Assembly: GCA_025999775.1 (NCBI GenBank)
Contig: BNXT01000034.1
Span: 1 to 9,314 of the forward strand
DNA length: 9,314 nucleotides
Reading direction: 5' to 3'
Source of the DNA: Bacteroidia bacterium
GTDB lineage: Bacteria; Bacteroidota; Bacteroidia; Bacteroidales; P3
Part shown: positions 5,501-8,309 of the stretch, piece by piece
Numbering within the stretch: position 1 is the stretch's first letter
How the letters are laid out: each line of letters opens with the position of its first letter
The notes under the pieces: model-generated
What the model saw: only the letters and a program-made list of their open reading frames with translations
Database searches by the model: none
What the model was told of the DNA's origin: nothing
Program-made: the position numbers and the translations under genes

Positions 5501-6481
5501 TCATTGTACGTATTTTGTGGTTTTTTTGACAAATGCCTGTAAAGGCTCTATATGACCGTAATATTCACTATCTGTCCAATAACCATGTTCGTACAAATAA
5601 CGATAGAACTGCTGCTTGTGTTTGTAACGTTTCTTGCTATTTGGCGTCAAACGAAGTCTATCTTGCATTATTCGATAGCCCAAAAACGGCAAACCATCCG
5701 CTGTTTTATTATGACAAATAACCTTTAATGTGAGTTGCAATCTATTCTCAAGAAAAAGGCGTATCTTTTCATGGTTCTGCAACAATAAGAATTTATCATT
5801 TCCCCATATTACCATGTCGTCCATATAGCGGACATAGTAACGTATATGCAAGGTTTCCTTTATGTAATGATCGACAAATCCAAGATAATAATTTGCAAAG
5901 TACTGACTTGTTAAATTGCCAATCGGTAAACCCTTGTTTGTGTCTTCAAATAGGGGGCTATGAAAACTGTCGATAATCCTGTCAAAAACATTCAATACAA
6001 ACGGATCTTTGATTATCCGACGCAACAGTGTTTTTAAGATAGCGTGGTCTATAGAATCAAAGTATTTGCGGACATCCATCTTCACAAACCACTGTGTTTT
6101 TCGATGGTTCTTCATTGCCTTCTCCAATGCCTTATATTGTCCCTTCCCTACTCTGCAAGCGTAACTGTCTGCTATCTGAAACCTCTCAAAAATAGGACAA
6201 CACACCCGCATCATTGCATGTTGAACGATTCGTGCTTCAAACTCCGAAGCGTGTATCCATCGCTCTTTGGGTTCATAAACCTTGAAAGAATGATACTTGC
6301 CAACAACTACCGAATAGCTCAAAAAGGCTTCGCGTATTCTCTCAAAATCCGCCTCATTGTCCCGCAATAGCCATTCTTGGACGCATCGTTTCTTGTGTTT
6401 ACCCTTGGTTGCAAGATAAAAAGCGTAGCGGATATTCTCCAACTCCGCAATCTTGTCTATTAATCTGCCTTGTCGTTTCAT
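5501..6481 (-). CDS. Diversity-generating retroelement reverse transcriptase
   Basis: The enzyme copies the template-repeat RNA into cDNA with errors at adenines, and the cDNA then replaces the variable repeat of the target gene. The 326-aa single-domain protein has the expected DGR RT length. Motif A is VKMDVRKYFDSID with catalytic Asp136. The DGR-diagnostic segment GLPIGNLTSQ (184-193) takes the place of the QG motif of other RTs. YMDD (219-222) holds the two catalytic aspartates 221-222. A following GLPFLGYRI (263-271) belongs to the palm/thumb junction. The C-terminus is rich in Lys, Arg and Tyr, suiting RNA binding. No maturase, endonuclease or retron features are present. It is the last gene of the cassette, downstream of the TR, as in most known DGRs. 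All catalytic residues are intact. Confidence 0.97.
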   Translation of the reverse strand: MKRQGRLIDKIAELENIRYAFYLATKGKHKKRCVQEWLLRDNEADFERIREAFLSYSVVVGKYHSFKVYEPKERWIHASEFEARIVQHAMMRVCCPIFERFQIADSYACRVGKGQYKALEKAMKNHRKTQWFVKMDVRKYFDSIDHAILKTLLRRIIKDPFVLNVFDRIIDSFHSPLFEDTNKGLPIGNLTSQYFANYYLGFVDHYIKETLHIRYYVRYMDDMVIWGNDKFLLLQNHEKIRLFLENRLQLTLKVICHNKTADGLPFLGYRIMQDRLRLTPNSKKRYKHKQQFYRYLYEHGYWTDSEYYGHIEPLQAFVKKTTKYVQ

Positions 6482-6633
6482 AATCTTAATAAAAAAATCG
6501 AGGACTTTCGCTCATCTGACTACTAACCCCCGATTAGGTTGGCGTCTTGCAACGCCCTCACGATTTGCCCTTGTTACAGAGGCAGGACAAAAAGGTTGTT
6601 CAGAGTATCTTTTGTTTTCTTTTTCACCTTGAG
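6482..6633 (-). ncRNA. TR-RT spacer, probable 3' part of the DGR template RNA
   Basis: This 152-bp stretch between TR and RT has no supportable gene. It contains two short stems: GGCGT/ACGCC (6541-6545 with 6552-6556, 6-nt loop) and CTAA/TTAG (6523-6526 with 6534-6537). In the Bordetella phage DGR the equivalent spacer is needed for RT binding and for priming of cDNA synthesis, so a structured RNA role is inferred here by position. The RNA ends cannot be determined from sequence alone. Confidence 0.5.
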
Positions 6634-6766
6634 CTATGGAACCAAAACCAAGCGGAACCCTATGTTGTTGTTGCGATTCGTTGGCGTGTTGTTGTTGCGA
6701 TTGGAAACCGTGCAATTCGACGCATCATTGTTCCAGCTGCCGCCACGATTCACGCGGTTGGAGCCA
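6634..6766 (-). repeat. DGR template repeat (TR)
   Basis: The TR aligns without gaps to 7410-7542 (offset 776) with 112 of 133 positions identical. Of the 21 differences, 20 fall where the TR coding strand has adenine (T on the plus strand, for example 6666, 6668, 6671, 6695, 6696, 6728, 6729, 6749, 6750 and 6758). The one exception is 6652/7428 (G versus C), near the 3' end. Read in the target's frame the TR is full of AAC/AAT codons: its peptide contains RGGSWNNDASNC and TPTNRNNNIGFRL and ends in the same TAG. AAY codons can mutate freely at their two A positions without ever giving a stop. It begins 25 bp after the accessory gene's stop and lies 152 bp before the RT start. Confidence 0.97.
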
Positions 6767-6791
6767 TACCTTTTTACCCTTTGTTTGTTGA

Positions 6792-7274
6792 TTAACTATC
6801 CTTAATCATTAAATCTGTCAAGCGTTTAGCATATTTTGTTCGTCTGTCTTTCTTTATTTCTTCATGCTCAACTATATTTTGTTCTGTTATTTCATCCATC
6901 GTACATATAAGAAGCAGTTCTTTATCGGAAAACACATCGTAGTTTTGGCGTATATTATCTTCTTCGGCTATTGTTTGGCGGTAGCGACGCAACTTTTCAA
7001 ACACCTCTTTATTTTGTTCAGACAGGTCGTTTTTCATCTGTTCTACTGTTGCTTTATATTTACCGCACATCATTTGTCGGGTAGCCTCTTCGACCGATTT
7101 GGTTACTTCGCCCTCGATATACCACACACGAAAACTCCAAAACATAAAGCCCTCATCATCAATGTGCTCCTTGTCAATGATACGAATCACCTTATGGGCG
7201 CGCAGAAAACTATTCATCTCTTCCTGCATCGTGCCTGTATCATGTACCGATATGTAGAATATTTTTAACTGCAT
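6792..7274 (-). CDS. DGR accessory protein with C-terminal HRDC-like domain
   Basis: The 160-aa protein lies between the target and the TR, the position of accessory genes in DGRs. The N-terminal half (MQLKIFYISV, then EEMNSFLRAHKVIRI and a segment ending FWSFRVWYIEG) matches what I recall of DGR-associated proteins. The C-terminal part (about 90-156) has KLRRYRQTIAEEDNIRQNYD followed by VFSDKELLLI and a KYAKRLTDLM helix, the pattern of an HRDC (helicase and RNase D C-terminal) nucleic-acid-binding domain. The usual Avd accessory is instead a small basic four-helix bundle. A role in chaperoning the template RNA or cDNA with the RT is inferred. I chose the ATG at 7274; a TTG at 7295 would add seven residues but breaks the family-like start MQLKIF. 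Confidence 0.8.
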   Translation of the reverse strand: MQLKIFYISVHDTGTMQEEMNSFLRAHKVIRIIDKEHIDDEGFMFWSFRVWYIEGEVTKSVEEATRQMMCGKYKATVEQMKNDLSEQNKEVFEKLRRYRQTIAEEDNIRQNYDVFSDKELLLICTMDEITEQNIVEHEEIKKDRRTKYAKRLTDLMIKDS

Positions 7275-7323
7275 CTCTCGAAAGCGGACAGGCAAACCCT
7301 GCCCTTATATTTTTATTTTTTTT

Positions 7324-7374
7324 CGCAATGCTTTTTTGGCGGGGGCTATCGCTTTCCCCGCCAAAAGCATTGCG
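7324..7374. repeat. Long hairpin just downstream of the VR (candidate DGR target-site hairpin)
   Basis: CGCAATGC...GGCGGGG (7324-7344) and CCCCGCC...GCATTGCG (7356-7374) are complementary along their whole length, apart from two extra T residues in the left arm, around an 11-nt loop. In the coding direction it starts 35 nt after the target's stop codon and is followed by an A-rich run, not a U-run, so it is not a standard terminator for the target. In the Bordetella phage DGR a hairpin or cruciform downstream of the VR promotes retrohoming and marks VR rather than TR as recipient. No comparable long hairpin follows the TR. Confidence 0.75.
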
Positions 7375-7409
7375 GAGTTTATTCTGTTTTTTTGGTTTTG
7401 CACTCTAAA

Positions 7410-7542
7410 CTAGGGAACCAAAACCAACCGGAACCCTATGTCGCTGCTGCGACTCGCTGGCGTGTCGCTGAGGCGACCGGAAACCGTGCAATACGACGCA
7501 TCAAAGGCCCAGCTGCCGCCACGAAGCACGCGGCTGGAGCCA
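7410..7542 (-). repeat. DGR variable repeat (VR), 3' end of the target gene
   Basis: The VR covers the last 44 codons and stop of the target (residues 256-299). Relative to the TR, all 13 AAY codons are changed, at residues 259 Ser, 262 Leu, 268 Ala, 269 Phe, 273 Tyr, 278 Gly, 280 Leu, 281 Ser, 282 Asp, 286 Ser, 288 Ser, 289 Ser and 290 Asp. One ACG has become GCG (Ala285). The conserved scaffold residues RGGSW, CTVS, TP and IGFRLVLVP are untouched. The 3' end (7410-7440) is nearly identical to the TR and should hold the initiation-of-mutagenic-homing site. Confidence 0.97.
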
Positions 7543-8309
7543 GATGTAGCGCCCGTAGGATTATTCGTACTACTTGGATAAGTCCCATACCAATCACTGC
7601 ACCACTCCCACACATTCCCACTCATATCAAAAATACCCAACTCATTGGCAGATTTTCCTCCTACCAGATGCGTTGTAATTCCTGAATTACTAACGTACCA
7701 AGCCACATCCCCTATCGTATTACTTCCACTATAGTCATAGTTATGCGTGCTTTGTCCGCCTTTAGCGGCATACTCCCATTCCGCTTCCGTAGGTAAACGA
7801 TAACGCATGCTGCCTAAGGTTCCGCCATTTGCTAATACCGACAATTTATAACAAAAACCATTCGTATAATACGTAATCCCTTTTTCCGTATAACCTACGC
7901 TGCCGCCCGATGACGTACCTACTATATCATTCCAACTTACATTATACATCGGATAGTTATCGCCCACGCCATAACTACTTGATGGCGCAGAAGCGGGTGA
8001 CCAACCCCCCATCACATCGTACCACTGCTTTTGCGTTACCTCGTACTTCCCTATCTGAAACGTACTGATGCTCACACTGCTTCCATTGAGCGTCGTCGTA
8101 CCGCCGGGTACACTGACCATTTCTATGATATTACTTCCTATAGGAAGGGTATCTGTGCTGTAGGTAATGCTGTCTATTTGCGATATTTTTTCGGTATAAA
8201 CCACACTGCCATTGCGATGAACTTTCATTGTCCTGTTTTGTGACCATGCCACATTGATCGTTAGCAAAAATGCCATGAAAAATAAGGATTTATTAACTAT
8301 CTTTCTCAT
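7410..8309 (-). CDS. Secreted FGE-sulfatase/C-type-lectin-fold protein, DGR target
   Basis: The 299-aa protein has a Sec signal peptide (hydrophobic 9-20, probable cleavage AWS|Q at 23-24). A short module (28-51) with NGSVVYTEKISQIDSITYS follows, common at the start of exported Bacteroidota proteins. Residues 62-298 form a formylglycine-generating-enzyme (FGE/SUMF1) domain: MVSVPGG, FQIGKYEVTQKQWYDVMG, YPMYNVSWND, YRLPTEAEWEYAAKGG, GIFDMSGNVWEWCSDWYG and RVLRGGSW to IGFRLV. This fold is a C-type-lectin variant and a common DGR scaffold. Of the two active-site cysteines of true FGE (human 336 and 341), only the second has a match (Cys274); the first falls on diversified residue 269 (Phe). It is therefore probably a binding protein, not an enzyme. 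The ATG at 8309 lies 37 bp behind the T9SS-sorted protein, so co-transcription is likely. The bound ligand is unknown. Confidence 0.93.
   Translation of the reverse strand: MRKIVNKSLFFMAFLLTINVAWSQNRTMKVHRNGSVVYTEKISQIDSITYSTDTLPIGSNIIEMVSVPGGTTTLNGSSVSISTFQIGKYEVTQKQWYDVMGGWSPASAPSSSYGVGDNYPMYNVSWNDIVGTSSGGSVGYTEKGITYYTNGFCYKLSVLANGGTLGSMRYRLPTEAEWEYAAKGGQSTHNYDYSGSNTIGDVAWYVSNSGITTHLVGGKSANELGIFDMSGNVWEWCSDWYGTYPSSTNNPTGATSGSSRVLRGGSWAFDASYCTVSGRLSDTPASRSSDIGFRLVLVP

Follow-up and report, generated by a model that had tools for sequence, protein, structure and literature searches.

A cellular diversity-generating retroelement of a Bacteroidia bacterium and its likely set of FGE-domain targets

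The window analysed here, a stretch of 9,314 bases from a Bacteroidia bacterium, is the entire contig C34 of a genome bin (2.05 Mb in 563 contigs, 61.8% complete, 0.44% contaminated); the flanks beyond the contig ends are outside view. It carries a diversity-generating retroelement (DGR). The reverse transcriptase (RT), template repeat (TR), variable repeat (VR), hairpin, accessory gene, spacer and target gene are all present at 5501-8309 and co-oriented on the minus strand (Table 1), so that the complete DGR proposed in the initial annotation stands. Along the direction of transcription the order is: a protein sorted by the type IX secretion system (T9SS), target, HRDC accessory, TR, spacer, RT, a HicB-like open reading frame (ORF), ThrS-like, IF3-like, an outer-membrane protein, and UppS-like. 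With a probability of roughly 75%, this is a complete cellular DGR whose single template diversifies its own target and at least five VRs that are spread over four further genes of this genome. Judged from its sequence, the system is likely active. In the following, the labels C, G, L and P denote contigs, genomes, loci and homologous proteins.

Table 1. Features of the DGR locus and its neighbourhood in the window
Feature	Position	Strand	Basis
Weak HicB-like antitoxin ORF between ThrS and RT	4798-5202	minus	21.6 bits vs cut-off 27
DGR reverse transcriptase, 326 aa, YMDD, IGNLTSQ	5501-6481	minus	RVT_1 54.2 bits; phrog_1423; tree; PDB 8ub7
TR-RT spacer, 152 nt, predicted 3' part of TR RNA	6482-6633	minus	position
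Stem-enclosed AGTAG...GAAA element, candidate RT-binding RNA structure	6496-6535	minus	stem score 21, 0/100 shuffles
Template repeat (TR) with IMH*-like 3' end	6634-6768	minus	TR/VR alignment
Accessory, 160 aa, alpha/beta part at the N-terminus, HRDC domain at the C-terminus	6792-7274	minus	PF00570
Hairpin after cis VR, loop AAAGCGATAGC, candidate homing hairpin	7324-7374	minus	fold vs shuffles
Variable repeat (VR) at C-terminal end of target	7410-7544	minus	TR/VR alignment
Target gene, 299 aa, start resembling a signal peptide, FGE-sulfatase domain (C-type-lectin fold)	7410-8309	minus	PF03781, TvpA 2y3c
Protein with T9SS sorting domain and InlB-like repeat	8347-9132	minus	directly upstream of target

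The TR and the cis VR, both described initially as intact, align over 135 nt with 22 mismatches, of which 21 are at TR adenines and one is a C-to-G change near the 3' end. Within the 111-nt core, the cis VR is changed at 19 of 34 A sites and at 0 of 77 other sites (Fisher p = 1.6e-12). When the alignment is extended to 156 nt, 23 mismatches fall on A and 6 on other bases; of the latter, five lie beyond the VR. Read in frame, the TR contains 13 AAY codons, has no reachable stop except the terminal TAG, and allows for at most about 3e19 peptides.

A search of the bin with the TR returned 15 places, namely the TR itself, the cis VR and 13 further ones. Five of the remote VRs (C96a, C96b, C43, C113 and C48, on four other contigs) are nearly A-only, which makes six such VRs in five genes when the cis VR is included. 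Their non-A mismatches to the TR core number 0, 0, 1, 2 and 4 of 77, respectively, and their A-site mismatches 16, 17, 20, 21 and 19 of 34. Summed over the six VRs, differences from the TR occur at 112 of 204 A sites and at 7 of 462 other core sites (455/462 match). At position 115, the TR has C and all six VRs have G, an IMH-like boundary differing from IMH* (IMH, initiation of mutagenic homing). Pairwise comparison of the VRs gives differences at 16-28 of 34 A sites but at only 0-5 of the 77 others; among the trio of C96a, C96b and the cis VR, the non-A differences are 0/77. The initial annotation had named, as grounds for rejection, VRs that are invariant and accumulate non-adenine changes across the population; this is addressed in part, by the A-site differences among the six VR paralogues and in a single homologue from a different organism (P0012, see below).

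The VR targets in the bin are FGE proteins which either stand alone or are linked to PEGA, Fn3-like (by eye) or carboxypeptidase-regulatory domains. C96a is internal in a 503-aa reading frame that has two FGE domains and is open at the contig start, with C96b at the end of the same frame. In the C113 target, PEGA stretches precede the FGE domain, and the C43 target has, by eye, a lipoprotein-signal-like start. Nine more VR-like places (two on C7, three on C8, two on C41, and C182 and C104) have 10-24 non-A mismatches. Eight of these nine, C104 being the exception, are A-enriched at p<0.05, although an Asn-rich template would by itself yield some enrichment. They may thus represent older targets, places served by a TR outside the bin, or plain paralogues.

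The cis target matches the FGE-sulfatase family (PF03781) with 137.9 bits, and its best PDB relative is TvpA (2y3c, E 7.7e-36). Its C-type-lectin (FGE) fold is assigned by these two matches, its own fold model being too poor for use. The protein is predicted to be exported, from a signal-peptide-like N-terminus recognised by eye. The suggestion that the DGR diversifies an exported protein is supported but was incomplete, as most targets lie elsewhere in the genome. A homologue known from its protein alone (P0012; source FACS1894201, Bacteroidia bacterium) covers 79% of the target with 86% identity. Its VR differs from the window TR peptide in 13 residues, 13/13 at A codons, and from the window target in 16 of 43 VR residues compared to 15 of 192 upstream residues (p = 4.8e-6). 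The source names of the target homologues P0012, P0028, P0089 and P0126 include Candidatus Ordinivivax and Candidatus Symbiothrix. Both are Bacteroidales on termite-gut protists.

The RT is full-length and has both motifs which had been pointed out for it, YMDD and IGNLTSQ. Its best PDB relative is 8ub7 (E 5.6e-39), and it matches the phage-derived RT family phrog_1423 (E 3.3e-87). A phylogeny of RTs had been proposed as a check, and in a tree of 47 rows the window RT is placed inside the DGR clade, together with brt from BPP-1 and other DGR RTs, split from five group-II-like rows at 100/100; the DGR side has 42 rows, three of which are not established as DGRs. Within this clade, the window belongs to a group of 27 rows (100/100), with L044 as the nearest (66% identity), followed by G008 (100/99). 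Matches to the RT at E 0.001 occur in 22 of 61 genomes (its own and relatives), many of these being distant RTs, and matches at E 1e-55 in 16 of 393 genomes drawn from the order, its own included.

According to the TR/VR finder, the TR precedes the RT in the window, L044 and G008. This looks like a derived move, because the TR follows the RT in 20 other cassettes (L032-L036, L045, L047-L049, L051, L052, L119-L122, L124-L127 and L129); the count leaves out seven cassettes without a credible pair (L037, L046, L050, L123, L128, L130 and L131). In L122 (G245:C279), the RT is broken by a stop, yet the TR/VR pair has 20 A and 2 other mismatches. An A-biased repeat pair in L043 (G005; 122-308 vs. 670-856; 24 A, 1 other) adjoins a distant RT of 26% identity and is, with it, another DGR of a different branch.

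The accessory protein had been called HRDC-type, and this is borne out by Pfam HRDC (PF00570), which is matched with 26.0 bits, above the cut-off of 23.8. Its start is best placed at 7274 (ATG), matching its homologues. The HRDC accessory is in the same cassette as the RT, as in the HRDC DGRs of the Treponema denticola type. Avd (NF033474) had no match in the bin at its 61.8% completeness.

The hairpin reported downstream of the VR was confirmed. The stretch 7300-7412 folds at z -6.1, with 0/200 shuffles as good. The hairpin begins 36 nt after the VR and is stronger and longer than the GC-rich 7-10 bp GRNA hairpin of the BPP-1 type, located at 4-34 bp; GATA within the loop AAAGCGATAGC is, by eye, compatible with GRNA on a 2-bp stem. 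L044 has the same loop on different stems. For 45 VRs, the 120 nt that follow the VR were searched for the best perfect stem, which was compared to 40 base shuffles and accepted if at most 3/40 were as good; these shuffles, like those of the spacer stem test below, preserve base composition only. The test was passed by 21 of 24 cis VRs including that of the window (failures: L052, L124 and L038), by four of seven remote VRs of G008 and G001 (three further G008 VRs are outside the test), and by the two additional VRs that L120 and L127 contain. Among the nearly A-only remote VRs of relatives, one of three has a hairpin (G001 C86a). In BPP-1, such a hairpin is needed for efficient, not for all, homing (PMC3240598; PMC12875486), and Roux et al. 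(2021) linked C-terminal VRs to such cis elements (PMC8144416).

The motif GAGGGACGA is absent from the window, but 550 kb of loci contain it at nine distinct places (L033, L035, L045, L047, L049, L051, L076 and L097); L117 and L118, which repeat L045 and L049, are excluded from the counts. Eight of the nine places are downstream of a VR, and the ninth lies where contig L051 begins, with no VR visible there. Directly after the C96b and C48 VRs (L069, L072), where the cis VR has its hairpin, there are low-complexity tracts of the GGAGTGTGG type.

Remote VRs also occur in relatives. In G001, two of them have 17 and 20 changes, all at A sites, and a third has 19 A and 6 other changes. G008 has one with 14 A and 2 other changes, besides six full-length VRs whose non-A changes number 12-30. 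G061 (the genome of L044), G290 and G210 have only the cis VR besides the TR, with an additional 21-base match in G061. G147 has two VRs at one locus.

Several observations weigh against diversification in trans by an HRDC-type DGR in the window genome. None of its 12 other VRs that were tested passed the hairpin test (three are internal: C96a, C7a and C8b), and the C48 VR sits in a fragment of 83 aa with which its contig begins. Ongoing copying was tested as fewer non-A changes in the VR than upstream, for the 10 pairs with upstream sequence; p<0.05 was obtained in three, all with C43, so that the support for VR overwriting from the TR is weak. The VRs, compared from assembled sequences, may be old. 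Because of the limited completeness and high contig number of the bin, remote contigs could be misbinned, and the bin could lack a second RT or TR; that the bin holds one RT only counts for a single template. A Foldseek search with the accessory model returned no match at E 0.001 or better.

It would be compatible with the absent hairpins and with the outcome of the copying test that the cassette diversifies the cis target only, the other VRs being duplicated copies of an already diversified target, now frozen. The domains which surround the VRs are indeed close paralogues, with a non-A divergence upstream of the VRs of 3.0-10.1%, and some T. denticola VRs have been interpreted as leftovers (PMC4891356). 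However, the pairwise differences described above are concentrated at A sites, up to the 0/77 among C96a, C96b and the cis VR. Plain duplication and drift is disfavoured, because the A-only pattern needs each copy to come from a separately diversified cis state. We thus consider it unlikely that the remote VRs are frozen copies. It is most improbable that the window belongs to a prophage, or to a mobile element of another sort, which its DGR would serve: the flanks are out of view, the RT matches a phage-derived family, related RTs occur in phages (162 annotated phage records, all <60% identity) and on plasmids, and intergenic repeats lie between ThrS and RT, but ThrS-, IF3- and UppS-like genes, read from translations, are found on one side of the RT, scans of viral contigs gave no relative of RT or accessory, and five window proteins scanned in PHROGs had no structural or integrase match, the HicB-like ORF showing only a weak tail-chaperone match (E 0.0096). 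The chromosomal, cellular setting near housekeeping genes that had been assumed at the outset is supported by the same evidence, within a contig that ends at 9.3 kb.

If one template serves cis and remote targets, the RT together with the HRDC protein would bind the TR-spacer RNA, and cDNA would be made from the TR RNA with errors at template adenines. The mutated cDNA is predicted to replace VRs next door and in trans by retrohoming. The cis hairpin would raise homing at the cis VR, and remote VRs would be reached without a hairpin, less often or through recombination. The resulting proteins, predicted to be exported, would form a family of binders of C-type-lectin fold that have the variable domain in common and differ in their N-terminal parts.

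The spacer may have a role in this process like that of BPP-1, in which it recruits the RT with Avd and primes cDNA synthesis (PMC12875486). The pattern AGTAG...GAAA inside a stem of score ≥18 occurs in 12 of 25 TR 3' flanks, window included, against a shuffle expectation of 0.02, the pattern having first been noticed on the same sequences that were later scored, with no independent test set. The element occurs with the TR before as well as after the RT. It was not found by the stem test in the two nearest relatives of the window (L044 and G008), nor in G017, L045, L048, G035, G128, G245a, G271a, L052, L038, G026 and BPP-1. Pairing of own versus other arms (13 spacer stems and 11 hairpins, 0/20000 permutations each) was dropped as evidence. 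This permutation is partly circular because the arms were chosen for pairing, and therefore the shuffle counts alone are used. In an earlier form of the spacer-arm test, own arms ranked first both by row and by column in 8 of 15 cases.

The closest kind of system is the T. denticola DGR (TvpA family), so that the kind is already known. Likenesses are FGE-type targets, an HRDC accessory, a chromosomal location without phage genes, and 2-7 dispersed targets per TR (PMC4891356); TvpA itself is the best PDB relative of the window target. In T. denticola the accessory lies between TR and RT (PMC4891356), whereas in the window the TR lies between accessory and RT. The window DGR is therefore kin of the T. 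denticola HRDC DGR and not a member of that type. Unlike T. denticola, some targets of the window genome have two FGE domains, with one nearly A-only VR being internal.

With BPP-1, the window shares the order target-accessory-TR-spacer-RT, a hairpin after the VR, and A-directed mismatches (PMC3240598, PMC12875486). The TR-RT spacer is 144 nt long in BPP-1 and 152 nt in the window. BPP-1 is phage-borne and has Avd as its accessory (bbp7 of its record, which we take to be avd), whereas the window has the HRDC protein, and the RTs are about 33% identical.

The DGR on plasmid pPAES01 of Prosthecochloris aestuarii is alike in having an FGE target, an HRDC gene and an RT, the latter being sister to a 28-row group which holds the window RT (87/87). 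It differs in that HRDC and Avd are both present, the TR follows the RT, and the location is a plasmid. The co-occurrence of both accessories indicates that HRDC need not replace Avd everywhere. In this plasmid DGR (L141 539-3514), the HRDC gene and Avd adjoin the RT and FGE targets.

Thiohalocapsa PB-PSB1 likewise has some targets with several VRs, and trans action was inferred there from matches at non-A sites (PMC10907252). It has nine DGR loci and targets linked to conflict systems (PMC10907252), compared to one RT and FGE proteins in the window genome. Several VRs in one ORF were reported for 31 of 271 multi-VR DGRs (PMC6642488), with further cases in PMC10907252, and dispersed and paralogous DGR targets are on record (PMC4891356, PMC3521204).

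A wider proposal is possible but doubtful: that, in one branch of the Bacteroidota DGRs, homing in trans extends to hairpin-less sites, including VRs within proteins with tandem lectin domains, with HRDC replacing Avd and with a spacer RNA domain (stem-AGTAG...GAAA-stem). If true, such a branch would break the rule of C-terminal, hairpin-bound targets, and one template would drive a whole family of multi-domain surface proteins. One genome pairs VRs with and without a hairpin, and C-terminal and internal VRs, on one template, and thus offers a natural comparison for the BPP-1 rules. Should the hairpin-less sites be active, these rules fail for this branch, and the RT plus HRDC might serve as a more permissive tool for targeted mutagenesis. 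The spacer element is a concrete candidate for an RT-bound RNA where Avd is absent. The scattered and tandem target set merits further study, as do the hairpin split and the spacer element. Among mostly non-subscription journals, no earlier paper on this locus was recognised.

The T9SS-sorted protein at 8347-9132 and the target have a common style of signal region, and no VR was seen in the former. Between ThrS and RT there are short dispersed direct and inverted repeats (4712-4734/5371-5393; 5466-5479/8466-8479).

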